IMG/VR virus record: IMGVR_UViG_3300043395_001587
Location: 1 to 33,961 of that record
Source of the DNA: a virus
DNA length: 33,961 nt
Direction: 5' to 3' (one strand)
Part shown: positions 26,182 to 33,961 of the stretch, one piece after another
How positions within the stretch are numbered: the first letter of the stretch is position 1
Layout of the letters: the number at the start of each line of letters is the position of its first letter
Made by a program: the position numbers and the translations under genes
The notes under the pieces: model-generated
Seen by the model: the letters and a program-made list of their open reading frames with translations, nothing else
The model's database searches: none
Told to the model about the DNA's origin: nothing

Positions 26182-26197
26182 TGTGATGAACCTCACA
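26182..26197. promoter_or_regulatory. CRP/GlxR-like operator 1
   Basis: Perfect TGTGA-TGAACC-TCACA. Centre 26189.5, 62.5 bases before the first base of the -10 box at 26252. Confidence 0.75.
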
Positions 26198-26228
26198 TAA
26201 AAAATGTCGCAAATGTCCGTTTTTCAAG

Positions 26229-26257
26229 TTGAAAATGTCAGTGGGGTATGTTATTGT
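26229..26257 (+). promoter_or_regulatory. promoter for the gene at 26287
   Basis: TTGAAA (26229-26234), 17-base spacer with TGTCAGTGGGG, and TATTGT (26252-26257). TATCTT six bases later is an alternative -10. TGTCAG starts 16 bases before the -10. Two related words, ATGTCGC (26204) and ATGTCCG (26213), lie upstream. Confidence 0.6.
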
Positions 26258-26286
26258 TATCTTATTAGAAAGAAAGGAGATAGTAA

Positions 26287-26460
26287 ATGAAAACACTATC
26301 ACACTATACAAGTAAATGCCTCTCCTGTAATTGGTCAGGTGAGCCACAGGACATCTTCTGTTCTGTTGATAAATCACACAAGACAGCCCGCCTGTGGGCT
26401 TGGTATGATAAAGAAAATAGTTCTTATTCATACTCACACTCTAACCTAGAGTGTGATTAA
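26287..26460 (+). CDS. 57-residue cysteine-pair protein
   Basis: Starts at ATG 26287 after AGAAAGGAG. Cysteines at CLSC (11-14), one in IFCSV (25) and one near the end (LECD). The protein has W-rich and S/Y-rich stretches (RLWAWYDKENSSYSYSHS). It could hold one zinc through CLSC and two further ligands. No family recognised. The stop codon lies inside the next TGTGA-N6-TCACA operator, so the end of this gene and the control of the next are fused. Confidence 0.55.
   Translation: MKTLSHYTSKCLSCNWSGEPQDIFCSVDKSHKTARLWAWYDKENSSYSYSHSNLECD
26434..26456 (+). terminator. hairpin at the end of the 26287 gene that shares the next operator
   Basis: TCACACTCTA (26434-26443), loop ACC, TAGAGTGTGA (26447-26456): a perfect 10-bp stem. 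No U tract follows. Its right arm supplies the left TGTGA half-site of operator 2. Confidence 0.45.
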
Positions 26461-26467
26461 CATCACA
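26452..26467. promoter_or_regulatory. CRP/GlxR-like operator 2
   Basis: Perfect TGTGATTAACATCACA, extended by one more pair (G/C). Centre 26459.5, 41.5 bases before the -10 at 26501. Overlaps the stop codon of the upstream gene. Confidence 0.8.
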
Positions 26468-26477
26468 CCGAAAGTCC

Positions 26478-26506
26478 TTGACTTTCCGCCACCGACCTGC
26501 TAGAGT
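26478..26506 (+). promoter_or_regulatory. promoter for the gene at 26535
   Basis: TTGACT (26478-26483), 17-base spacer, TAGAGT (26501-26506), preceded by TGC (extended -10). The spacer holds CCACCGAC, the reverse complement of the GTCGGTGG element found in other promoters. Confidence 0.7.
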
Positions 26507-26534
26507 TCTCTTATAAATGAAAGGAGTTCATCAA

Positions 26535-26735
26535 ATGAATGAACAAACATTACTAACAAAACTAGGTTTCTCTACCCATAAGGCAGACTTAGCCTCTATC
26601 GTATCCGATGAATGGGAGCGTTTTGCTACCTGTGAAAAATGCGGTTTAGATATCTCAGCCTTTTGGGTTGATGATGAAGACCGCCTTAGCGGTTGGTCTA
26701 GTTGGAAGTCCACTAGTGGACTATGCCAGGTGTGA
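26535..26735 (+). CDS. 66-residue cysteine-pair protein
   Basis: ATG 26535 follows AAAGGAG by eight bases. An in-frame ATG at 26517 overlaps the promoter's transcribed start and contains the ribosome site, so it is rejected. CEKC (about 28-31) is followed by an acidic, Trp-rich segment (SAFWVDDEDRLSGWSSWKST) and one more cysteine near the end. Function unknown. The TGA stop lies within the next operator, the same design as the previous gene. Confidence 0.55.
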   Translation: MNEQTLLTKLGFSTHKADLASIVSDEWERFATCEKCGLDISAFWVDDEDRLSGWSSWKSTSGLCQV

Positions 26736-26746
26736 TAGACATCACA
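26731..26746. promoter_or_regulatory. CRP/GlxR-like operator 3
   Basis: Perfect TGTGA-TAGACA-TCACA, extended to GTGTGA/TCACAC. Centre 26738.5, 41.5 bases before the -10 at 26780, the same as operator 2. Confidence 0.8.
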
Positions 26747-26756
26747 CCAAAAACCC

Positions 26757-26785
26757 TTGACTTTCTCGATTCTATCTGATAGTCT
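26757..26785 (+). promoter_or_regulatory. promoter for the 26924-27312 operon
   Basis: TTGACT (26757-26762), 17-base spacer, TAGTCT (26780-26785) preceded by TGA. No TGTCRG element. It gives a long untranslated leader of about 130 bases. Confidence 0.65.
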
Positions 26786-26832
26786 TAGGACATAACTAAA
26801 TAAAGAAAAATCCTAGTGAGCCTGTGAGCCTT

Positions 26833-26880
26833 AGCAAATAATCCGAAAGGTGAGCCTAAGCAAATAATCAGCAAATAATC
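26833..26880 (+). repeat. AGCAAATAATC repeats in a long leader
   Basis: Three copies of AGCAAATAATC at 26833-26843, 26859-26869 and 26870-26880, with GTGAGCCT before the first two. The 26786-26923 leader contains no supported gene. Possible iteron, RNA element or binding array. Confidence 0.6.
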
Positions 26881-26923
26881 TAGGTCAGCAAAACAAAACT
26901 CGAAAACGAAAGGTAATAAATAA

Positions 26924-27076
26924 ATGAAAATCACTTACTCAATCTGGGACGGCGCTCAACTATTGGGCACTAACTTCACCGCTTCAACTCCTGAAGAAAT
27001 GGAAAAATTTGTAGGAGAACTAAAGAAAGTTTCTAAAAACGTTGTAGCACATATGAGAAAGGTAGAACAAGAATAA
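26924..27076 (+). CDS. 50-residue protein, first gene of a small operon
   Basis: ATG 26924 after GAAAGG. The protein begins with a beta hairpin (MKITYSIWDGAQLLGTNFTA) and continues with one amphipathic basic helix (EEMEKFVGELKKVSKNVVAH). No cysteine or membrane segment. The stop overlaps the next start as TAATG. Function not recognised. Confidence 0.55.
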   Translation: MKITYSIWDGAQLLGTNFTASTPEEMEKFVGELKKVSKNVVAHMRKVEQE

Positions 27077-27246
27077 TGACCTACGAAGTAACAGAAGAAA
27101 TCTATGACGAATTTTTAAATGAGATTTATCCTGAAGTAAAACTAGGGTACTCAACTTTTCAACCGTCCGAAATACTAAAACATCTTGACCCAATCGCTTA
27201 CAATGTAGGGATGCAAGAGTATGAATATTTTCAAAATGAAGAGTAA
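27076..27246 (+). CDS. 56-residue acidic protein
   Basis: Starts in a TAATG overlap with the gene at 26924, so it is probably translated by re-initiation. Very acidic and tyrosine rich (TYEVTEEIYDEFLNEIYPEV ... EYEYFQNEE), with no cysteine. Small acidic early proteins in phages often mimic DNA or bind host enzymes, but this is only a general possibility here. Confidence 0.55.
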   Translation: MTYEVTEEIYDEFLNEIYPEVKLGYSTFQPSEILKHLDPIAYNVGMQEYEYFQNEE

Positions 27247-27249
27247 CGA

Positions 27250-27312
27250 ATGCGTGAACTCCTTGCTATTGTGATCATCTGCACACTGTTGGGACTTATC
27301 TTAGGCATGTGA
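27250..27312 (+). CDS. 20-residue membrane peptide
   Basis: A very short frame, MRELLAIVIICTLLGLILGM, which is one hydrophobic segment with a basic-acidic start. It lies three bases after the 27076 gene and its stop lies in operator 4. Coding cannot be proved at this size. The tight packing and the clear membrane-type composition support it. Confidence 0.35.
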   Translation: MRELLAIVIICTLLGLILGM

Positions 27313-27323
27313 CAAAAATCACA
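27308..27323. promoter_or_regulatory. CRP/GlxR-like operator 4
   Basis: TGTGA-CAAAAA-TCACA, extended to nine-base arms GGCATGTGA/TCACATGCC, the longest match of the set. It is 100 bases upstream of operator 5 and has no promoter at the usual distance. Confidence 0.75.
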
Positions 27324-27358
27324 TGCCGCCCTCGGCGTGTTGACTTGACAAAAGCTGC

Positions 27359-27393
27359 GACACGCCCGAGCCCGCGGCGCTGTCGGGCGTGTC
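27359..27393. repeat. GC-rich hairpin cassette
   Basis: GACACGCCCGA (27359-27369) pairs with TCGGGCGTGTC (27383-27393). The 24 bases 27370-27393 recur exactly, inverted, at 31058-31081. No U tract. It might terminate, or form an end of a recombining module. Strongly GC rich against the AT-rich surroundings. Confidence 0.7.
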
Positions 27394-27402
27394 TGTGGAT
27401 AA
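27394..27402 (-). promoter_or_regulatory. DnaA-box match 1
   Basis: TGTGGATAA is the reverse complement of the consensus DnaA box TTATCCACA. It directly follows the GC-rich cassette. A single short match, so binding is uncertain. Confidence 0.35.
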
Positions 27403-27407
27403 GTTTA

Positions 27408-27423
27408 TGTGGTGTAAATCACA
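27408..27423. promoter_or_regulatory. CRP/GlxR-like operator 5 (one mismatch)
   Basis: TGTGG-TGTAAA-TCACA. Centre 27415.5, 62.5 bases before the -10 at 27478. Confidence 0.65.
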
Positions 27424-27461
27424 AAAAAAGTTTGAAAATACTGGTCAGTAACCCCCCAAAA

Positions 27462-27483
27462 TGTCAGTGGTCTATGTTATGCT
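27462..27483 (+). promoter_or_regulatory. promoter for the gene at 27520
   Basis: TGTCAGTGG (27462) lies 16 bases before TATGCT (27478-27483). TGCTAAAGG just after is an alternative. The -35 position reads CCCAAA, poor, so activation by a bound protein is likely. Confidence 0.55.
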
Positions 27484-27519
27484 AAAGGCATAGAAAATAA
27501 AGAAAGGTTAGGTAATAAA

Positions 27520-27699
27520 ATGACTAACAATAAATGTAAATGCGAAAAACAACACACAATGTTGGATTTGTATAATCACGATAACAACAAAGTTTGGCTA
27601 AAACAAAAGTGGCATAAATGCTACATCTGCTCAAGATTTCAAATCTCAAAGTGGATTAGACTTCACGAAATGCGTTGCTACTACGCACACAAAAACTAA
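27520..27699 (+). CDS. 59-residue cysteine/histidine-rich protein
   Basis: ATG 27520 after GAAAGG. Ligand-like residues: CKC (6-8), H12, CYIC (34-37), H49, C53. Basic and aromatic (KQKWHK, SKWIRLHEMRCYYAHKN). Probably one or two zinc sites and nucleic-acid contact, which is inference. No family recognised. Confidence 0.55.
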   Translation: MTNNKCKCEKQHTMLDLYNHDNNKVWLKQKWHKCYICSRFQISKWIRLHEMRCYYAHKN

Positions 27700-27733
27700 A
27701 TAAAAAAGAAAGTATCTTAGAAAGGATAACTAA

Positions 27734-27946
27734 ATGTCAATAGAAATATTTGAAATGAATGAAAATGGTGCTGGTTGGGTATCATTAGAAAATGCTTCCG
27801 CTTCTACTAAACTAGATTTGGAACTTGCTTTGCTAACTAAGGCAGAAGTAAAAATGCTTTGCTTCAAATGCCATGTTGAAATCCCTCGTGGAAATGTTTG
27901 TGTAAATCATAAAAATGTAAAAGGTGCGATTTATTTCGCTGATTGA
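27734..27946 (+). CDS. 70-residue protein with C-terminal zinc-knuckle-like segment
   Basis: ATG 27734 after GAAAGGA. The N-terminal 40 residues form a short beta segment and a helix (STKLDLELALLTKAEVKML). The C-terminus contains CFKCHVEIPRGNVCVNHK: Cys-x2-Cys plus Cys and His, a possible single zinc site like those in ribosomal or regulatory small proteins. Operon with the genes on each side. Unknown function. Confidence 0.55.
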   Translation: MSIEIFEMNENGAGWVSLENASASTKLDLELALLTKAEVKMLCFKCHVEIPRGNVCVNHKNVKGAIYFAD

Positions 27947-27958
27947 AAGGAATAAAAA

Positions 27959-28090
27959 ATGGATTATCAAATCACAATAAACTATTCAACTGATAATGAT
28001 TATTTGAATGAAAACATTCAAGCTTTATTAGAAAACTCTTTGCCTTTCATTGTTGATAATGTAAAAATACATTTTGACTTTGATAACTAA
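27959..28090 (+). CDS. 43-residue acidic protein
   Basis: ATG 27959 preceded by GAAAGGAATAAAAA. Beta-strand start (MDYQITINYS) like the start of the protein at 30551 (MDYNYSLTISY), then a helix and an acidic FDFDN end. No cysteine. The last gene before a long regulatory gap. Function unknown. Confidence 0.5.
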   Translation: MDYQITINYSTDNDYLNENIQALLENSLPFIVDNVKIHFDFDN

Positions 28091-28104
28091 AAAAAAATAA
28101 AAAA

Positions 28105-28170
28105 TGCGGCGTGTTTATTTGACATGCCGCAAAAAATTCGCTGCGATCACGAGCCGCGTTCGGGCGTGTC
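28105..28170. repeat. GC-rich cassette with hairpin and TCGGGCGTGTC copy
   Basis: TGCGGCGTG (28105-28113) can pair with CATGCCGCA (28123-28131), with one G-U pair. TCGGGCGTGTC at 28160-28170 is the third copy of the cassette word. The segment matches 27333-27393 in order of words (CGGCGTGTT, TTGACA, GCTGCGA, GCCGCG, TCGGGCGTGTC), so the two cassettes are diverged copies. No gene lies in 28091-28332. Confidence 0.6.
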
Positions 28171-28178
28171 TTTACATA

Positions 28179-28194
28179 TGTGAGATTAAACACA
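28179..28194. promoter_or_regulatory. CRP/GlxR-like operator 6 (one mismatch)
   Basis: TGTGA-GATTAA-ACACA, inside CATATGTGA/ACACATGG. Centre 28186.5, 42 bases (four helix turns) upstream of operator 7. Confidence 0.55.
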
Positions 28195-28220
28195 TGGAAA
28201 TTTTGAGCGTAAAATTAAGA

Positions 28221-28236
28221 TGTGATTTTAATCACA
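28221..28236. promoter_or_regulatory. CRP/GlxR-like operator 7
   Basis: Perfect TGTGA-TTTTAA-TCACA. Centre 28228.5, 64.5 bases before the -10 at 28293. Confidence 0.75.
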
Positions 28237-28276
28237 ATCCCAAATGTCCGATTTGACCGATTTATGACCCCTAAAA

Positions 28277-28298
28277 TGTCAGACCCCCCTGCTAGAAT
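28277..28298 (+). promoter_or_regulatory. promoter for the gene at 28333
   Basis: TGTCAG (28277) is 16 bases before TAGAAT (28293-28298), which is preceded by TGC. The -35 place is CCTAAA. ATGTCCGATTT lies at 28244. Confidence 0.55.
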
Positions 28299-28332
28299 AC
28301 TTGTATTAAATTAAATGAAAGGTAGGTCAAAA

Positions 28333-28524
28333 ATGACTACACTAAAAAATGAAATAAGAGTAATAACTCTTGATAATGTAAATGCTGATGAGGCAAATCT
28401 AATAGTTTGCTCTTTCTGTGATGATTATGCTTCAGATACTTTCTGCGGAAAGTGTAATGAATACAAAGGTTTGATGACCCTTGCTGAGTGGTTGTCCTAT
28501 ACAAATGAAAGTTGGGTGATGTAA
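28333..28524 (+). CDS. 63-residue zinc-ribbon protein
   Basis: ATG 28333 after AGGTAGG. The in-frame ATG at 28315 holds the ribosome site and is rejected. CSFC (27-30) and CGKC (38-41) give a compact four-cysteine zinc site (CSFCDDYASDTFCGKC). The N-terminus is a beta segment and the C-terminus one helix with two Trp. Zinc ribbons of this form occur in transcription and anti-restriction proteins, but no target can be named. Confidence 0.6.
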   Translation: MTTLKNEIRVITLDNVNADEANLIVCSFCDDYASDTFCGKCNEYKGLMTLAEWLSYTNESWVM

Positions 28525-28526
28525 TA

Positions 28527-28616
28527 ATGGATTATCTTGATTATCTTGATGAAATCTACGAGGAACTCGTAGAGGAATTCGGTCATGAAATTGAGGCTAA
28601 CTGCCAACATAAATGA
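28527..28616 (+). CDS. 29-residue acidic peptide
   Basis: MDYLDYLDEIYEELVEEFGH then EIEANCQHK. Two bases after the 28333 stop, very acidic and helical. The gene ends ten bases before operator 8. Too short for sure coding, but packing and composition resemble the neighbours. Confidence 0.35.
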   Translation: MDYLDYLDEIYEELVEEFGHEIEANCQHK

Positions 28617-28625
28617 TCGAATTGG

Positions 28626-28641
28626 TGTGATAATAATCACA
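28626..28641. promoter_or_regulatory. CRP/GlxR-like operator 8
   Basis: TGTGA-TAATAA-TCACA, extended GGTGTGA/TCACACC. Centre 28633.5, 62.5 bases before the -10 at 28696. Confidence 0.8.
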
Positions 28642-28672
28642 CCAAAAATGCCCGAAATGTCCGATTTTCGAT

Positions 28673-28701
28673 TTGATAATGTCGGTCAAAAATGCTAAAC
28701 T
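28673..28701 (+). promoter_or_regulatory. promoter for the 28727-29772 operon
   Basis: TTGATA (28673-28678), 17-base spacer with TGTCGG (28680), TAAACT (28696-28701) preceded by TGC. ATGCCCG (28648) and ATGTCCG (28657) lie upstream. Confidence 0.65.
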
Positions 28702-28726
28702 TGTAGCCATAAAAGAAAGGAAAAAA

Positions 28727-28927
28727 ATGTCCGCAAATGTTTATTCTATTGAAAACCTATTAGTAGGTAAAACTTATCGTTCCCGTTCGGTTGAGGGAGA
28801 AATCATCTCAGCAGAAAAACACCCTCACGCAGTTTGGTATGAGGGTTGTGAAAGTTATCTTGTAGAAATTCGTAAGCAAGGTGGCGGTTATACTTACCGC
28901 ACCCTAGCAGTAAAGGTTGGTGAATAA
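28727..28927 (+). CDS. 66-residue beta protein, paralogue of 30021-30236
   Basis: ATG 28727 follows AAAGAAAGGA. An ATG at 28673 lies upstream of the transcription start and is rejected. The protein reads YSIENLLVGKTYRSR, then GEIISAEK, YEGCESYLVEIR and TLAVKV. The same series (YSIVDLL, GGIINFAEK, SEGYEAFAIRYR, TVAVRV) is found at 30021, so the two are paralogues of a small beta-barrel-like fold. First gene of a six-gene operon. Function unknown. Confidence 0.6.
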   Translation: MSANVYSIENLLVGKTYRSRSVEGEIISAEKHPHAVWYEGCESYLVEIRKQGGGYTYRTLAVKVGE

Positions 28928-29046
28928 TGAAACTAGAGGAATACAAAGCACTTGTTATCGCTCAGCGAGAAGCAAGCAAGGCAGAAGCGTTGTCGGTGCT
29001 ATCTGCTACAATTTCTAAAACACAAAAGAAAGAGGTAAATAAATAA
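28927..29046 (+). CDS. 39-residue helical protein
   Basis: Starts and ends in TAATG overlaps with both neighbours. One amphipathic helix rich in Ala, Lys and Glu (EEYKALVIAQREASKAEALS). No motif. The gene also carries an internal promoter-like element at 28991. Confidence 0.5.
   Translation: MKLEEYKALVIAQREASKAEALSVLSATISKTQKKEVNK
28991..29012 (+). promoter_or_regulatory. intragenic promoter-like element
   Basis: TGTCGGTG (28991) is 16 bases before TACAAT (29007-29012), which is preceded by TGC. It is the same geometry as nine intergenic promoters, here inside the 28927 gene, and it would drive the genes from 29046 onward. Confidence 0.45.
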
Positions 29047-29222
29047 TGGTAAAGGTATTTTTAGAAACTGCCAATGGTGATTATCGTTGGCTAGAGTTTG
29101 CTAATGCTGAGGTTGTTCGTCAATTCGTTGATGAATTACCTAAAAAACTAAAGCGTTCAACTGCCGTTCGTGTTGAGTGTGATTTATTAGGTATCGGCGG
29201 AATTGTGAGAGGAATAAACTAA
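29046..29222 (+). CDS. 58-residue alpha/beta protein
   Basis: TAATG overlaps at both ends. MVKVFLETANGDYRWLEFAN, then a basic helix and strand (RQFVDELPKKLKRS, VRVECDLLGIGGIVRGIN). It resembles a small beta-alpha-beta fold. No known family and no catalytic motif. Confidence 0.55.
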   Translation: MVKVFLETANGDYRWLEFANAEVVRQFVDELPKKLKRSTAVRVECDLLGIGGIVRGIN

Positions 29223-29374
29223 TGAAAAAAAATGTTCTAGTTTCTTTTGTTACTGAGGCAGACACCGATTTAGAAGCGGTGTTTGACCTAAATAAAGTTT
29301 TTCTAGCGTTGCCCGAAAGCGACTTAGTAAAATTTGATGTATTTGATGTTTTAGATGTAGAGGAGAATAAATAA
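29222..29374 (+). CDS. 50-residue acidic protein
   Basis: TAATG overlap with the upstream gene. A beta-strand start (KKNVLVSFVTEAD), a helix, then an acidic end DVFDVLDVEENK. The last codons hold GAGGAG, the ribosome site of the following gene, so the two are coupled. Function unknown. Confidence 0.55.
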   Translation: MKKNVLVSFVTEADTDLEAVFDLNKVFLALPESDLVKFDVFDVLDVEENK

Positions 29375-29647
29375 ATGAAAGCACTTGAAATTCAACAGGC
29401 TACCCATGACGCTATTTTTGATGAAAGAATAATGGCGCAAGCAGAAATGCTTTTAGCAGTTTCTCAAATGAACCCTGATAAAGAAATGATGACTAAAATG
29501 ATTTTTGCTTATTCATCTATGCTTGCCGCAATGGTTGCTTCTAATGTAACTCAAGTTTTGCTAACAGAACAAGAGTTTGAACAAATGACGCAAGAAATAA
29601 ATGAGTTTGAACAAATTCGTGATAGCGTTTTGGGTGGTGATAACTAA
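29375..29647 (+). CDS. 90-residue helical protein
   Basis: Starts right after the upstream stop. All-helical pattern with many Met and Ala (DERIMAQAEMLLAVSQMNPD, MIFAYSSMLAAMVASNVTQV) followed by an acidic helix. The hydrophobic middle is amphipathic and not a clear membrane segment. Might be a helical bundle or oligomeric regulator. No family recognised. Confidence 0.55.
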   Translation: MKALEIQQATHDAIFDERIMAQAEMLLAVSQMNPDKEMMTKMIFAYSSMLAAMVASNVTQVLLTEQEFEQMTQEINEFEQIRDSVLGGDN

Positions 29648-29772
29648 TGACCGCAAATCGTTTGCTAACAACATTTGTTCAGTTATTTTTATTATCATTT
29701 ACTATTCCACTTTTTATTTTAGCAATAAAAGATTTTAGAAAAGATTTTTTTCCTAAAAATAAAAAAGATTAG
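29647..29772 (+). CDS. 41-residue single-pass membrane protein
   Basis: TAATG overlap with the upstream gene. Residues 6-27 form one membrane segment (LLTTFVQLFLLSFTIPLFIL), followed by a strongly basic tail (KDFRKDFFPKNKKD) expected on the cytoplasmic side. Last gene of the operon. A small membrane-acting early protein is possible. Confidence 0.5.
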   Translation: MTANRLLTTFVQLFLLSFTIPLFILAIKDFRKDFFPKNKKD

Positions 29773-29789
29773 CGATCTAAAAAAATAGT

Positions 29790-29860
29790 TTGAAGCTTCA
29801 ACTAAAATGGTTGAAGTTTCAACTAAATCGCCACGTTATCGTGGCGGGGTCGGGCGTGTC
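29790..29860. repeat. TTGAAG repeats and GC-rich hairpin after the 28727 operon
   Basis: TTGAAGCTTCAA (palindrome) and TTGAAGTTTCAA follow each other, both continued by CTAAA. Then CGCCACG (29829-29835) pairs with CGTGGCG (29840-29846) over a TTAT loop, and TCGGGCGTGTC follows at 29850-29860. TTTCAACTAAAT followed by a GC-rich cassette also ends the operon at 31028. Likely a terminator-type end, without U tract. Confidence 0.5.
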
Positions 29861-29872
29861 TGTGTACGAAGC

Positions 29873-29881
29873 TGTGGATAA
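29873..29881 (-). promoter_or_regulatory. DnaA-box match 2
   Basis: TGTGGATAA, the same consensus DnaA-box complement as at 27394, again just after a TCGGGCGTGTC cassette. Confidence 0.35.
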
Positions 29882-29893
29882 CTCCATGGAAAT

Positions 29894-29909
29894 TGTGAGA
29901 TTTATCACA
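29894..29909. promoter_or_regulatory. CRP/GlxR-like operator 9
   Basis: Perfect TGTGA-GATTTA-TCACA. Centre 29901.5, 25 bases upstream of operator 10. Confidence 0.7.
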
Positions 29910-29918
29910 TTACAAGCG

Positions 29919-29934
29919 TGTGAGTTTTATCACA
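29919..29934. promoter_or_regulatory. CRP/GlxR-like operator 10
   Basis: Perfect TGTGA-GTTTTA-TCACA. Centre 29926.5, 62.5 bases before the -10 at 29989. Confidence 0.75.
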
Positions 29935-29972
29935 AAAAATATTTACGAGAATTACGGCGTGTCTATGGAAAT

Positions 29973-29994
29973 TGTCAGTGGGTTTTGGTAAAAT
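29973..29994 (+). promoter_or_regulatory. promoter for the gene at 30021
   Basis: TGTCAGTGGG (29973) is 16 bases before TAAAAT (29989-29994). The -35 place reads TGGAAA. Confidence 0.6.
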
Positions 29995-30020
29995 TGTAGG
30001 TAGAAAGAAAGGAAAACTAA

Positions 30021-30236
30021 ATGCGTTCATACTCTATCGTTGATTTACTAATCGACCAATACTATGCCCCTACTTCTCTCCGTCGTCGTTTCAACGGGGG
30101 AATTATCAACTTTGCTGAAAAGCGTGAGGATATTTATTTATCTGAGGGCTATGAAGCCTTTGCTATCCGTTATCGCCCAACGGGTTCGCTAAAAGACGAA
30201 TGGGCAACTGTCGCTGTCCGTGTCTCCGACTACTAA
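30021..30236 (+). CDS. 71-residue beta protein, paralogue of 28727-28927
   Basis: ATG 30021 after GAAAGGA. It shares the order YSI.(D/N)LL, G.II..AEK, (E/S)GYE...I.Y and T.AV.V with the protein at 28727, with an extra basic loop (TSLRRRFNGG). Likely a small beta-barrel of unknown role. It has its own promoter with a double operator, so it is probably strongly regulated. Confidence 0.6.
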   Translation: MRSYSIVDLLIDQYYAPTSLRRRFNGGIINFAEKREDIYLSEGYEAFAIRYRPTGSLKDEWATVAVRVSDY

Positions 30237-30237
30237 T

Positions 30238-30259
30238 TGTCGGTGGCATAGGATAGACT
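30238..30259 (+). promoter_or_regulatory. promoter for the 30288-31028 operon
   Basis: TGTCGGTGG (30238) is 16 bases before TAGACT (30254-30259). CCGAC (30226-30230) can pair with GTCGG (30239-30243), so the element sits in a small hairpin. No TGTGA-N6-TCACA site is seen upstream. Confidence 0.6.
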
Positions 30260-30287
30260 TAGAATTAGAAAGAAAGGAAAAATAAAA

Positions 30288-30440
30288 ATGGCAAAAATGA
30301 AAGCACTATTAGAAGCAGTTTTATCCTGCGAAAATTGCTCAGGGTTAGGTTATCATGGTTGGGTTTCACCTGACGGAGACTATGACTTTGAGTATTGCGA
30401 ATGTAATCCCGAAAGACTAAATATAGAGGAGTTATCCTAA
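30288..30440 (+). CDS. 50-residue zinc-finger protein, DnaJ-like cysteines
   Basis: ATG 30288 after GAAAGGA. CENCSGLGYHGW resembles the CxxCxGxG unit of DnaJ-type zinc fingers, and YCECNPE supplies two further cysteines. Four cysteines make one zinc site. The C-terminus is acidic. TAATG overlap with the next gene. Function unknown. Confidence 0.6.
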   Translation: MAKMKALLEAVLSCENCSGLGYHGWVSPDGDYDFEYCECNPERLNIEELS

Positions 30441-30550
30441 TGGAATTGTTTCTCTGTGATAATTGTGATACGCTTGCTATTGTGGAGCAAGTAAGCGACA
30501 CAATAAAAATAACTAAATGCTCATGCCTTACACTAGATTGGAAAGAATAA
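30440..30550 (+). CDS. 36-residue zinc-ribbon peptide
   Basis: Begins in a TAATG overlap. LCDNCDTL and KCSCLTLDW give CxxC plus CxC, the same ligand layout as the upstream gene, so the two may be related or form a pair. Ends one base before the next ATG. Confidence 0.5.
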   Translation: MELFLCDNCDTLAIVEQVSDTIKITKCSCLTLDWKE

Positions 30551-30760
30551 ATGGACTATAACTACTCTCTCACAATTTCCTATGACGGGGAATTGGTATC
30601 AACAACAAGAAGCGCAGACTTACTAGAAATAGTAAATGCGTGGAATAAATGCGTGGACTATGGCGATGCTAAAGAATACGCTACTTACAATTTGTCTGAC
30701 CCTATGGGTAAAATGTATACTAAGAATTTCTATAGAAATGGAGAAGTAAATGGGAAGTAA
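30551..30760 (+). CDS. 69-residue beta protein
   Basis: Starts right after the 30440 gene. Strand-rich beginning (YNYSLTISYDGELVSTTRS), a helix, then TYNLSDPMGKMYTKNFYRNG. The start resembles that of the 43-residue protein at 27959. It overlaps the next gene by 11 bases. No family recognised. Confidence 0.55.
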   Translation: MDYNYSLTISYDGELVSTTRSADLLEIVNAWNKCVDYGDAKEYATYNLSDPMGKMYTKNFYRNGEVNGK

Positions 30761-31028
30761 TTTATCTGCTGAATTAACTGATAAGGAATTATTTCCTGAT
30801 CTGTCACTTGAAGATAGTGTAACTATACAATTGCGTTCTAATCATTATCCGCCTGTTCCATATTCTATGGTTCCAGTTTGCATTGAAGCAATTAAAGCGT
30901 GTAATGAATTAGATTATAATCGTGAAATTAAATTGCCTGAAGGAATTTCATTCCGTGGAAAAATTACTGCACCTGCAAATCAAATAGTTTCACAACACCA
31001 CTTAGATGAATGGGTTGATTGGGAATAG
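30750..31028 (+). CDS. 92-residue protein, end of operon
   Basis: ATG 30750 lies in the end of the upstream gene, after GGAGAAG. Acidic N-terminus (ELTDKELFPDLSLEDSVTIQ), a Pro- and Tyr-rich turn (SNHYPPVPYSMVPV), then a helix and a beta end (GISFRGKITAPANQIV) and a WVDWE C-terminus. One or two cysteines only. Unknown function. Followed by a GC-rich cassette that probably marks the operon end. Confidence 0.55.
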   Translation: MGSNLSAELTDKELFPDLSLEDSVTIQLRSNHYPPVPYSMVPVCIEAIKACNELDYNREIKLPEGISFRGKITAPANQIVSQHHLDEWVDWE

Positions 31029-31050
31029 TTTAACTTTCAACTAAATGCTG

Positions 31051-31081
31051 CGGGCGAGACACGCCCGACAGCGCCGCGGGC
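31051..31081. repeat. GC-rich cassette, inverted copy of 27370-27393
   Basis: 31058-31081 is the exact reverse complement of 27370-27393 (24 bases). CGGGCG before it can pair with CGCCCG inside it. TTTCAACTAAAT precedes it. Operator 11 begins at the next base. Confidence 0.7.
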
Positions 31082-31097
31082 TGTGATTATTATCACA
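31082..31097. promoter_or_regulatory. CRP/GlxR-like operator 11
   Basis: Perfect TGTGA-TTATTA-TCACA. Centre 31089.5, 52.5 bases before the -10 at 31142. Confidence 0.75.
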
Positions 31098-31117
31098 ATT
31101 ACGGGATTATGTACGAC

Positions 31118-31147
31118 TTGACTAAACTCACGGAAGTTTGCTAATAT
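31118..31147 (+). promoter_or_regulatory. promoter for the gene at 31177
   Basis: TTGACT (31118-31123), 18-base spacer, TAATAT (31142-31147) preceded by TGC. No TGTCRG element. Confidence 0.65.
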
Positions 31148-31176
31148 TAGTATATAAACAAATCGAAAGGAAAAAA

Positions 31177-31419
31177 ATGCAAAACTGGGTAAAATTCCCT
31201 TTTACAGTTGACGGAGTAGAATTCGTTTCATTAGTAGACCCGACAGGCAATATGTATCAACAGATAAAGCGTATTCCTGCTGAAGTATTTACTTCTATGA
31301 ATTCAGATGCTATTCGTGAGTTAATTGGTAAAGTATCTCTCATGTCTAAATCTGAAATTCAGGCAGAACTAGACCGAGTAAATGATGGTTATCAGCAGGC
31401 CTACTTGGCTCTAGCCTAA
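31177..31419 (+). CDS. 80-residue alpha/beta protein
   Basis: ATG 31177 after GAAAGGA. In-frame upstream ATG codons lie in the promoter and are rejected. The protein has a beta half (KFPFTVDGVEFVSLVDPTGN) and a helical half (DAIRELIGKVSLMSKSEIQA). No cysteine, no membrane segment. A strong terminator follows five bases after the stop. No family recognised. Confidence 0.55.
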   Translation: MQNWVKFPFTVDGVEFVSLVDPTGNMYQQIKRIPAEVFTSMNSDAIRELIGKVSLMSKSEIQAELDRVNDGYQQAYLALA

Positions 31420-31423
31420 ATCT

Positions 31424-31452
31424 TAGTAGCCCACCTTGTCGGTGGGCTACTA
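31424..31452 (+). terminator. strong hairpin terminator
   Basis: TAGTAGCCCACC (31424-31435), loop TTGTC, GGTGGGCTACTA (31441-31452): a perfect 12-bp stem. AT-rich sequence follows but no T run. Its loop and right arm form the next promoter's TGTCGG element. Confidence 0.65.
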
Positions 31453-31458
31453 TAAAAT
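31437..31458 (+). promoter_or_regulatory. promoter for the gene at 31484, inside the terminator hairpin
   Basis: TGTCGGTGGG (31437) is 16 bases before TAAAAT (31453-31458), the same distance as in the other promoters of this type. The element occupies the loop and the right arm of the terminator stem. Confidence 0.55.
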
Positions 31459-31483
31459 AGTAATATAAAAGAAAGGTAAAAAT

Positions 31484-31630
31484 ATGTGTGCTGTTTGTTA
31501 TGGTAATGCTCACGGGCTTACTTCTTATTCTATAAAGCCAAATACTCTTTGTGTAATTCATTATCAAGAGTGGGCTGACGAAAAGAATGCTTTTGATATT
31601 GGAGAAACAGATTACTTCGGAATAATTTAG
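31484..31630 (+). CDS. 48-residue cysteine-pair protein
   Basis: ATG 31484 after GAAAGG. CAVC (2-5), H10, C23 and H26 could bind one zinc. The remainder is acidic (EWADEKNAFDIGETDYFGII). A one-gene transcription unit between two promoters. No family recognised. Confidence 0.5.
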   Translation: MCAVCYGNAHGLTSYSIKPNTLCVIHYQEWADEKNAFDIGETDYFGII

Positions 31631-31688
31631 ATCACGGAAATTCCAGCTGCCGCCGCGCCCCAAACCAGGATTTGTCAAGTTACGACAA

Positions 31689-31704
31689 TGTGATTTTTCT
31701 CACA
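31689..31704. promoter_or_regulatory. CRP/GlxR-like operator 12
   Basis: Perfect TGTGA-TTTTTC-TCACA. Centre 31696.5, 62.5 bases before the -10 at 31759. Confidence 0.75.
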
Positions 31705-31735
31705 AAGAAATGTCCGATTTGATAGCATTTTGGAT

Positions 31736-31764
31736 TTGATTATGTCGGTGGGGTCGTGTAGAGT
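31736..31764 (+). promoter_or_regulatory. promoter for the gene at 31795
   Basis: TTGATT, 17-base spacer with TGTCGGTGGGG (31743), TAGAGT (31759-31764) preceded by TG. ATGTCCGATTT lies at 31710, 32 bases before the ATGTCGG copy. Confidence 0.65.
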
Positions 31765-31794
31765 AGTATTACTAACTAAGAGAAAGGAAGCAAA

Positions 31795-31941
31795 ATGAAA
31801 CTAGAGGTTGGCTCATCTCTAACAACACCTAAGTCTGGTGTTGTCGGTGTTATCAAGGAAGTAATCTCAAACAAGACAGGCTCAAAGCGTGTCCGTTTGG
31901 AACTCCCTAATGGCACAACTCGTTGGACTACTATCAAGTAG
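31795..31941 (+). CDS. 48-residue SH3-like protein, paralogue of 32538-32705
   Basis: ATG 31795 after GAAAGGA. The chain (SSLTTPKSGVVGVIKEVISN, then RVRLELPNGTTRWTTIK) looks like a tiny KOW/SH3-type barrel with a G-V-x-G-x-I turn. The protein at 32538 has the same plan (TTSKTGVTGRIEKF, VMLRLANNQQRFAMV). Such barrels bind nucleic acid or protein, but no target is visible. One-gene unit with its own operator and terminator. Confidence 0.55.
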   Translation: MKLEVGSSLTTPKSGVVGVIKEVISNKTGSKRVRLELPNGTTRWTTIK

Positions 31942-31953
31942 TCTATCATAGTC

Positions 31954-31982
31954 TAGTGGGTTGGACAAAATCCAACCCACTA
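31954..31982 (+). terminator. strong hairpin terminator
   Basis: TAGTGGGTTGGA (31954-31965), loop CAAAA, TCCAACCCACTA (31971-31982): a perfect 12-bp stem. The flanks AGTCTA and TAGACT can extend the stem past a small bulge. No T run. Confidence 0.65.
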
Positions 31983-31991
31983 TGCTAGACT
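31962..31991 (+). promoter_or_regulatory. promoter for the gene at 32028, overlapping the terminator
   Basis: TGGACA (31962-31967) in the hairpin, 18-base spacer, TAGACT (31986-31991) preceded by TGC. Confidence 0.5.
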
Positions 31992-32027
31992 AATACTTAC
32001 CCACAAACCCACTACGAAAGGAAACAA

Positions 32028-32450
32028 ATGGCAAGAGGCAAAGCGATAAATGTAAAAATCGCAACACCTAAAGTAATCAAGGCACTAGAAACTCGCCTTG
32101 CTAAACTAAATAAGGATTGGGATAACCAATCTGAAAATGAAGCAAAACATCAAAAGGCTATTGAAAAATGGCGCAAGGAAGTTGGCAAGTTTGCTATTGC
32201 TAACATCTCAAAGGCAGAAAACTTCCGCACAAACTATCGTGCTTGGAACAAAACCCTAAATGTGGATTTTGACCTAACCTGTTCTGAGGGAGAGTTCCCT
32301 GCTGAGCCTGTTCGTGATTTTGAGCAACTTCATCAGCACACTTACAATGAGATGAAAGAGGAAATGGAAAACGCAATCCGTATTCTCAAGATGACCGATG
32401 AGGAAGTTGTAAGCACAAGCACTTACAATGCTATTGCTCGTTATCTCTAA
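32028..32450 (+). CDS. 140-residue coiled-coil protein
   Basis: ATG 32028 after GAAAGGA. Basic N-terminus (ARGKAINVKIATPKVIKALE) followed by long charged helices (LETRLAKLNKDWDNQSENEA ... AIEKWRKEVGKFAIANISKA) that suggest a coiled coil. A middle segment TCSEGEFPAEPVRDFEQL breaks it, and a last helix ends in ARYL. One cysteine. One of the larger proteins of the region. It may be a structural or nucleic-acid-linked early protein. Family not recognised. Confidence 0.6.
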   Translation: MARGKAINVKIATPKVIKALETRLAKLNKDWDNQSENEAKHQKAIEKWRKEVGKFAIANISKAENFRTNYRAWNKTLNVDFDLTCSEGEFPAEPVRDFEQLHQHTYNEMKEEMENAIRILKMTDEEVVSTSTYNAIARYL

Positions 32451-32456
32451 GTAAAT

Positions 32457-32485
32457 AGTTGGGGGAGGCTTGACTTCCCCCAACT
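32457..32485 (+). terminator. hairpin terminator
   Basis: AGTTGGGGGA (32457-32466) pairs with TCCCCCAACT (32476-32485) over a 9-base loop. No T run. The loop contains the -35 box of the next promoter. Confidence 0.6.
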
Positions 32486-32498
32486 AAACTGCTAAACT
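32470..32498 (+). promoter_or_regulatory. promoter for the gene at 32538, starting in the terminator loop
   Basis: TTGACT (32470-32475), 17-base spacer (mostly the right arm of the stem), TAAACT (32493-32498) preceded by TGC. Confidence 0.6.
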
Positions 32499-32537
32499 GA
32501 AATAGTAATACCCACTACTAGCAAGAAAGGAAAAGAA

Positions 32538-32705
32538 ATGACTTTAGGAGGCTACACTTATCAAGTTGGCGACCTATTTACTACATCTAAAACAGGTGTA
32601 ACAGGTCGCATTGAAAAGTTTGTTCCAATCTCTCGTAATGTTACTAAAGTAATGTTGCGTTTGGCAAACAATCAACAGCGTTTTGCTATGGTAAAAACTT
32701 ACTAA
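32538..32705 (+). CDS. 55-residue SH3-like protein, paralogue of 31795-31941
   Basis: ATG 32538 after GAAAGGA. Beta pattern YTYQVGDLFTTSKTGVTGRI, then VMLRLANNQQRFAMVKT, matching the plan of the protein at 31795 (G-V-x-G turn, then (V/R)xLxL..(N)..R). Single-gene unit between its promoter and a classical terminator. Function unknown. Confidence 0.55.
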   Translation: MTLGGYTYQVGDLFTTSKTGVTGRIEKFVPISRNVTKVMLRLANNQQRFAMVKTY

Positions 32706-32737
32706 GCAAATGACCTGAGTATGTCAATAAACTGCTT

Positions 32738-32783
32738 ACACCACAGGGTCTTATACCTTTCCCCTGTGGTGTTTTTATTTTTC
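32738..32783 (+). terminator. classical intrinsic terminator
   Basis: ACACCACAGGG (32738-32748) pairs with CCCTGTGGTGT (32762-32772), followed by a T-rich run TTTTATTTTT. It is the best Rho-independent terminator in the window. Confidence 0.85.
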
Positions 32784-32800
32784 AAAAAACCCGCGGCGGC

Positions 32801-32816
32801 TGTGATCTTTATCACA
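32801..32816. promoter_or_regulatory. CRP/GlxR-like operator 13
   Basis: TGTGA-TCTTTA-TCACA, extended CTGTGA/TCACAC(AG). Centre 32808.5, 51.5 bases before the -10 at 32860. GC-rich CCCGCGGCGGC precedes it. Confidence 0.75.
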
Positions 32817-32836: not shown

Positions 32837-32865
32837 TTGTATCTCCTGATTATTTCTGATAAGAT
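32837..32865 (+). promoter_or_regulatory. promoter for the gene at 32872
   Basis: TTGTAT (32837-32842), 17-base spacer, TAAGAT (32860-32865) preceded by TGA-like CTGA. The expected start is about 32872, the A of the ATG, so the mRNA would be leaderless. Confidence 0.6.
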
Positions 32866-33533: not shown

Positions 33534-33555
33534 TGTCAGTACTATGTGATAGACT
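33534..33555 (+). promoter_or_regulatory. promoter for the gene at 33576
   Basis: TGTCAGT (33534) is 16 bases before TAGACT (33550-33555), preceded by TGA. No TGTGA-N6-TCACA site upstream. Confidence 0.55.
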
Positions 33556-33575: not shown

Positions 33576-33961
33576 ATGAAACTTAAAAGGTCTAATGATA
33601 GGAAGGTTGCTAATGCTGTCTCAAAAAATGGAAAAACCCCAACAATTGCCAACACCTTCGGATTACCTGCTGGAAAGGCTTTCTCGTGTCCTGGTGCCAC
33701 TAGTATTTGTGAGAGCGTTTGCTATGCAGGAAAACTCGAAAGAGTATACAAGGGAGTAAGGGCGGTCCTGCTCCATAACTGGGAGCTCCTGCGTAATGCA
33801 GATATGGACACGATGTGTTTATTGATTGATGAGATGATTGTTGATTTTGTCAATGAATGTGAAAAGAAAGACGCCCCTAAACTCTTCCGCATACACTGGG
33901 ACGGAGATTTCTTTAACGATACCTATGCATATGCATGGAAGACTGTTATCTCTAATCATCC
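33576..33961 (+). CDS. GP88-like phage protein, C-terminus missing
   Basis: ATG 33576 after GAAAGGA. 128 codons are visible and the frame runs off the right edge. The order FGLPAGKAFSCPGATSIC, then SVCYAGKLERVYKGV, then LFRIHWDGDFFNDTYAYAW is that of the actinophage gene-product-88 family (Pfam GP88, from memory). Cys-x6-Cys-x3-Cys gives three conserved cysteines that may hold a metal. The family has no established activity that I can name. This match is one of the hints of an actinobacterial host. Confidence 0.65.
   Translation, partial: MKLKRSNDRKVANAVSKNGKTPTIANTFGLPAGKAFSCPGATSICESVCYAGKLERVYKGVRAVLLHNWELLRNADMDTMCLLIDEMIVDFVNECEKKDAPKLFRIHWDGDFFNDTYAYAWKTVISNH

Follow-up and report, generated by a model that had tools for sequence, protein, structure and literature searches.

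What reads the many copies of the palindrome TGTGA-N6-TCACA that lie in the right-hand part of IMG/VR virus record IMGVR_UViG_3300043395_001587? The stretch analysed here, referred to as the window, covers positions 1 to 33,961 of that record. An earlier reading of its letters (the original prediction) proposed that the early genes of this phage read the carbon or energy state of the host through CRP/GlxR-type operators, or else use a CRP-like protein made by the phage. The right 8 kb of the window is best explained as the early block in the genome of a large actinophage that has a distant relationship to the Stanwilliamsviridae. The palindromes are confined to this block, stand at exact spacings and in helical phase to promoters, and are conserved together with them across many phages. 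This early block is probably driven by composite promoters read by host proteins, in which a core of the type used by the activator PafBC would be combined with a phased CRP-type activator site upstream.

Number, position and specificity of the palindromes

A pattern search of the window reveals 11 perfect copies of TGTGA-N6-TCACA, at exactly the 11 positions originally listed, and every one lies within 26182-32816. No further perfect copy occurs elsewhere in the 33,961 bases, which bears out the earlier observation that the left 25 kb is free of sites. The reversed pattern, used as a control, has no match in the window. Two one-mismatch sites already described, at 27408 and 28179, are correct, and a third is added here at 27270. 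Among inverted-repeat words of the 5-6-5 form between 26 and 33 kb, TGTGA occurs 11 times and every other word at most once. The sites had been placed between small operons; this holds broadly, with the qualification that several (26452 and 26731) overlap the 3' end of a small open reading frame (ORF).

At sites in phase with a promoter, mismatches are tolerated in the order A5 > T1 > G2 >> T3, G4, which leaves GTG..CAC as the constrained core. A consensus palindrome TGTGA-N6-TCACA that is tightest at GTG..CAC is characteristic of CRP/GlxR-family operators, and the view that these sites work like CRP sites is well supported.

The core promoter downstream of the palindromes

Most of the palindromes have the module TGTCRG-N10-TANNNT downstream. 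The original prediction is partly supported, in what it says of the CRP-type sites, but overlooked this more general core, of RecA-NDp/PafBC type, which serves most of them. The window has 10 of these modules where 0.60 would be expected; each is on the + strand, to the right of 26.2 kb. In 1.84 Mb of sequence from relatives, the N10 spacing yields 1120 matches, compared with 9-249 for other spacings. Alignment of 164 distinct copies, with composition read at columns outside the selection pattern, reveals AAAW 5' and TGG 3' of TGTC, an extended -10 element (TG, then TATAAT) and, 17 bp before the -10, a weak TTGAAA. A putative start of pyrimidine-A form lies 12 nt past the first T of the -10, and a purine-rich ribosome-binding leader is also seen.

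The RecA-NDp motif of actinobacteria is tTGTCRgtg-8nt-TAnnnT (PMC5656591), and it occurs beyond mycobacteria (PMC8223512). PafB binds the -26 element, and PafBC, which is activated by single-stranded DNA (ssDNA), adapts the sigmaA holoenzyme (PMC11804915). The phage module matches this motif in both sequence and spacing; counted from the -10, TGTCRG lies at about -28 to -23 and is thus centred near -26, as expected of a RecA-NDp/PafBC promoter. The promoters of this type in mycobacteria and other Actinobacteria share with the phage module the motif, the spacing, the -26 position and the lack of a strong -35. They differ in that the known examples serve DNA-repair genes, whereas those of the phage serve early operons and add an extended -10 and, in many cases, an upstream CRP-type site.

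It could be argued that TGTCRG is a general feature of host housekeeping promoters, or that it is read by a phage factor, like MotA of T4, rather than by PafBC. The RecA-NDp-type modules number about 10-20 per phage genome, more than would perhaps be required for a stress response. Sequence, spacing and -26 position are nevertheless identical to those of the PafBC motif, and sigmaA-type TTGACT promoters without TGTCRG, which serve three sites in the window, stand alongside in the same block. We consider this alternative unlikely, and PafBC remains the preferred candidate.

Spacing and helical phasing

Measured from the centre of the palindrome to the start of the -10 element, distances in the window are 62.5 bp (five promoters, one of them via a one-mismatch site), 64.5 bp, 41.5 bp (two promoters), 52.5 bp and 51.5 bp. 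The sites and promoters are listed below, with distances measured in this way; 'RecA-NDp promoter' stands for a promoter of RecA-NDp/PafBC type.

26182..26197, CRP-type palindrome, 62.5 bp upstream of the -10 of promoter 26236
26236..26257, + strand, RecA-NDp promoter (TGTCAG-N10-TATTGT), precedes ORF 26287-26460
26452..26467, CRP-type palindrome, 41.5 bp upstream of the -10 of promoter 26478
26478..26506, + strand, sigmaA-type promoter TTGACT-N17-TAGAGT, without TGTCRG
26731..26746, CRP-type palindrome, 41.5 bp upstream of the -10 of promoter 26757
26757..26785, + strand, sigmaA-type promoter TTGACT-N17-TAGTCT
27270..27285, one-mismatch CRP-type site, no in-phase promoter found
27308..27323, perfect CRP-type palindrome, orphan, no in-phase promoter found
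27408..27423, one-mismatch CRP-type site (TGTGG half-site), 62.5 bp upstream of the -10 of promoter 27462
27462..27483, + strand, RecA-NDp promoter, precedes ORF 27520-27699
28179..28194, one-mismatch CRP-type site, 106.5 bp upstream of the -10 of promoter 28277
28221..28236, CRP-type palindrome, 64.5 bp upstream of the -10 of promoter 28277
28277..28298, + strand, RecA-NDp promoter with extended -10 (TGCTAGAAT), precedes the ORF ending at 28524
28626..28641, CRP-type palindrome, 62.5 bp upstream of the -10 of promoter 28680
28680..28701, + strand, RecA-NDp promoter, precedes the gene whose product starts MSANVYSIENLLVGK (ATG at 28727)
28991..29012, + strand, RecA-NDp promoter without CRP-type site, precedes ORF 29046-29222
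29894..29909, CRP-type palindrome, distal member of a tandem pair, 87.5 bp
29919..29934, CRP-type palindrome, proximal member of the pair, 62.5 bp upstream of the -10 of promoter 29973
29973..29994, + strand, RecA-NDp promoter, precedes ORF 30021-30236
30238..30259, + strand, RecA-NDp promoter without CRP-type site, precedes ORF 30288-30440
31082..31097, CRP-type palindrome, 52.5 bp upstream of the -10 of promoter 31118
31118..31147, + strand, sigmaA-type promoter TTGACT-N18-TAATAT
31437..31458, + strand, RecA-NDp promoter without CRP-type site, precedes the ORF at 31484
31689..31704, CRP-type palindrome, 62.5 bp upstream of the -10 of promoter 31743
31743..31764, + strand, RecA-NDp promoter, precedes the ORF at 31795
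32801..32816, CRP-type palindrome, 51.5 bp upstream of an extended -10 (TGATAAGAT; TAAGAT at 32860)
33534..33555, + strand, RecA-NDp promoter without CRP-type site, precedes a Gp88-like ORF at 33576 or 33595

The composite architecture is common to at least 120 viral contigs, identified in an IMG/VR scan for both elements in order with a gap of 13-43. Distances in 210 de-duplicated pairs drawn from the loci of these contigs peak at 42.5, 52.5, 62.5, 72.5-73.5 and 83.5 bp, the peaks past 67.5 coming from flanking DNA beyond the gap range of the scan; the valleys are near-empty, and R=0.70 at 10.25-10.5 bp. With one promoter counted per downstream gene family (n~135), R=0.616 and p~6e-23 (Rayleigh approximation, families assumed independent). 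From phage to phage, the distance at a given gene changes by whole helical turns: 52.5/62.5/72.5 for the MSANVYS gene, 62.5/73.5/83.5 for the MAHNLE gene and 42.5/62.5/72.5 for the MTINGY gene. The sigmaA-type promoters without TGTCRG have their sites in these phases too, at 41.5-42.5 and 52.5. In the 52.5 and 62.5 classes, the two commonest, the sequence separating site from promoter is just 31-37% identical, so the spacing is not accounted for by a common cassette. The overall identity of the 30-35 promoters per class, which is below 60%, likewise speaks against recent duplication of such a cassette.

Sites placed at whole turns upstream and outside the core promoter fit an activator that would touch RNA polymerase in the manner of CRP at class I promoters. 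The phage sites resemble E. coli lac-type class I promoters and actinobacterial GlxR/CRP sites in the sequence TGTGAN6TCACA and in whole-turn upstream placement, a likeness to class I that is positional only. They differ in phase, which is shifted upstream by about 3 bp relative to E. coli, in the RecA-NDp core and in the many copies per block.

Repeated copies of one motif between small early operons are also what the stoperators of cluster A mycobacteriophages look like, and the palindromes could on this ground be repressor operators or stoperators of a phage immunity system. Such stoperators, however, are asymmetric, oriented, spread genome-wide and bound by a phage repressor. The palindromes are symmetrical, missing from the structural block, and positioned 42-84 bp upstream of the -10 in helical phase, where they rarely if ever overlap the core promoter. 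A role in immunity is therefore improbable. Less probable still, to the point of being negligible, is that the palindromes act as RNA hairpins (terminators or processing sites) at operon ends. TGTGA-N6-TCACA could form a 5 bp stem and some sites do lie at ORF ends, but no second 5-6-5 stem word is repeated in the early block, which indicates selection on the sequence itself and not on pairing, and a hairpin leaves the phasing to the downstream promoter unexplained. It is rejected on word specificity and phasing, and a CRP-type activator site remains the preferred reading.

Two further repeats were observed near the sites. In this AT-rich genome a GC-rich repeat (CGGGCGTGTCT / AGACACGCCCG) adjoins CRP-type sites at 27360-27400, 28160-28172, 29850-29862 and 31055-31070. 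Exact copies number 3 on the + strand and 1 on the - strand, with none in the left 25.9 kb and none in the five relatives checked; they are possibly terminators or a third regulatory element. The sequence AATGTCCG has 5 copies on the + strand of the early block (e.g. 26210, 28240, 28650 and 31710), often between palindrome and promoter, and none in the left 25.9 kb; relatives carry 1-3 copies.

The phage and its relatives

The window is a 34 kb piece of a large actinophage. Its left 23 kb encodes tail genes, a ribonucleotide reductase and a glycosyltransferase, followed by a lysozyme-like gene and thyX, with many small ORFs further to the right. In a 112 kb relative (G001, locus L089), genes of these kinds run the other way round. 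Its products include Gp88, DUF932 proteins and a WhiB protein; a WhiB-like gene and gene content of this kind are typical of actinophages. The nearest relatives of ThyX, DUF932 and WhiB are proteins of the Stanwilliamsviridae, which are Streptomyces phages.

The original prediction could have failed had the motif been frequent among structural genes or absent from related phages. In the 112 kb relative, all 8 palindromes lie within 79.8-88.5 kb, an early block of 8.7 kb, and none occurs elsewhere. Among the loci first fetched via proteins of the window, 34 (the window included) have at least two sites. The CRP-type sites are thus specific, retained in related phages, restricted to the early block and phased to promoters. 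Three relatives (L032/G023, L025/G020 and L035/G019) contain 15-27 RecA-NDp-type modules and no perfect CRP-type palindrome, which suggests that the PafBC-type core is more widespread than the CRP-type addition. Another locus, L020, has no perfect site in its stretch, yet near matches (TGTGTTACGTATCACA and TGTGGTCCGAATCACA) lie upstream of its modules.

The cultured Streptomyces phages of the Stanwilliamsviridae (Jay2Jay, Wofford, Bmoc and Gilson) share homologues of ThyX, the DUF932 protein and WhiB, and in them too ThyX adjoins a block of small genes. They differ in that, save for single occurrences, the early stretches examined lack the phased CRP-type sites and the set of early RecA-NDp-type promoters.

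A search for the host via ThyX in bacterial genomes gave 6 matches, all in metagenome-assembled genomes (MAGs) of other phyla; at least some of these are probably misbinned phage contigs. Locus L145 (CAINGU010000031.1) is a 110 kb contig in a MAG labelled as a cyanobacterium, with a ThyX 71% identical to that of the phage and one RecA-NDp-type module. It is probably a phage contig binned by error.

Predicted binding proteins and proposed mechanism

Domain searches of the phage contigs, some of which may be incomplete, found PF00027 (cyclic nucleotide monophosphate, cNMP, binding) in 0 of 24, PF13545 (Crp helix-turn-helix) in 0 of 27 and PF13280 (WYL) in 0 of 27. All three domains were detected in the positive control, Corynebacterium glutamicum. 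A CRP encoded by the phage, the second option of the original prediction, accordingly finds no support, and a phage-encoded PafBC/WYL protein is likewise disfavoured for the contigs searched. Since cNMP-binding, Crp-type and WYL domains are missing from the searched contigs, host CRP and host PafBC are the likely binders. A literature search found no paper on CRP genes of acI bacteria.

From the sequence patterns we infer the following mechanism. Small early operons would be driven by composite promoters with a RecA-NDp-type core, in which TGTCRG is centred near -26, the -35 is weak (TTGAAA) and the -10 is extended (TGnTATAAT). Once activated by ssDNA, PafBC of the host would occupy the -26 element and adapt polymerase carrying the housekeeping sigmaA to such a promoter. 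A host dimer of the CRP/GlxR family would bind TGTGAN6TCACA upstream and, displaced by one to three helical turns, would contact the polymerase, probably at the alpha C-terminal domain, and increase initiation in the way that CRP does at class I promoters. Early transcription would then follow two cues from the host. One is ssDNA or replication stress, possibly brought about by the infection itself; the other is the cyclic nucleotide or energy state. The early genes may in this way read the carbon or energy state of the host, as originally proposed.

A stricter version, on which our opinion is evenly divided, is that these widespread aquatic actinophages use a two-input gate made entirely of host parts, every promoter needing both ssDNA-activated PafBC at -26 and ligand-bound CRP at the phased upstream site. 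Such a gate would allow a strong start only under replication stress, possibly caused by the phage, and in a given energy state.

Several observations weigh against host-read composite promoters. There is a minor out-of-phase peak at 57.5/58.5, although 36 of the 60 promoters in it have another site that is in phase, and the perfect site at 27308 has no in-phase promoter. The use of PafBC early, before phage ssDNA builds up, is not explained by the sequence. If the first -10 base is taken as -12, with start sites themselves predicted, site centres fall near -54.5, -64.5, -74.5 and -85. In E. coli, CRP at class I promoters is found at -61.5, -72.5 and -82.5, and the phage centres are about 3 bp off these absolute positions. 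Speculatively, PafBC wedged between sigma domain 4 and the DNA could shift the geometry by such an amount.

In addition, most early proteins lack a family assignment, and an unannotated DNA-binding protein of the phage is conceivable. The palindromes might then be bound by a phage regulator of another family, such as a small helix-turn-helix protein, serving as activator or early-to-late switch, and the likeness to CRP would be convergent. We think this rather unlikely. The site is the textbook CRP/GlxR consensus, the tolerance order leaves its GTG..CAC core, matches to the CRP-type and WYL families are zero in the searched contigs, and early promoters have to fire ahead of phage protein synthesis. 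Composite promoters read by host CRP and PafBC remain the favoured interpretation.

Comparison with other phages and significance

Cyanophages carry NtcA and Pho boxes, that is, phage promoters with sites for a host regulator of nutrient state. The regulators and motifs there are different, and they form no composite with a DNA-damage promoter. In coliphage T1, the pir, dam and recE promoters are repressed by cyclic AMP-CRP (PMC6737242). T1 resembles the present case in that phage promoters read host CRP; it differs in being temperate and in that individual promoters are repressed, whereas here putative activator sites are phased across an early region.

The larger finding is a family of composite, phased phage promoters built on the PafBC motif and predicted to integrate two signals. 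Searches of the open-access literature revealed neither a previously described virus that relies on sigma adaptation by PafBC nor PafBC-dependent phage promoters. If the interpretation is correct, these phages exploit the DNA-damage activator of actinobacteria, and there is a reason for phage DNA entry or replication to feed forward into the phage's own transcription. In their hundreds, and with spacings that jump, these natural promoters constitute a data set on CRP action at a distance in actinobacteria, combined with sigma adaptation. The composite promoter may also serve as a signature by which uncultured actinophages of the same group can be recognized in metagenomes.

Other genes of the 112 kb relative

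The 112 kb relative (L130, L129) has a number of host-like genes, encoding tryptophan halogenase, S-adenosylmethionine decarboxylase, a subtilase, Hsp20, thioredoxin and WhiB, together with six tRNAs. A 547 amino acid protein (L127:582-2225) is ~45% identical to proteins of marine cyanophages, where they are annotated as hypothetical or tail fibre proteins, a resemblance unexpected for an actinophage.

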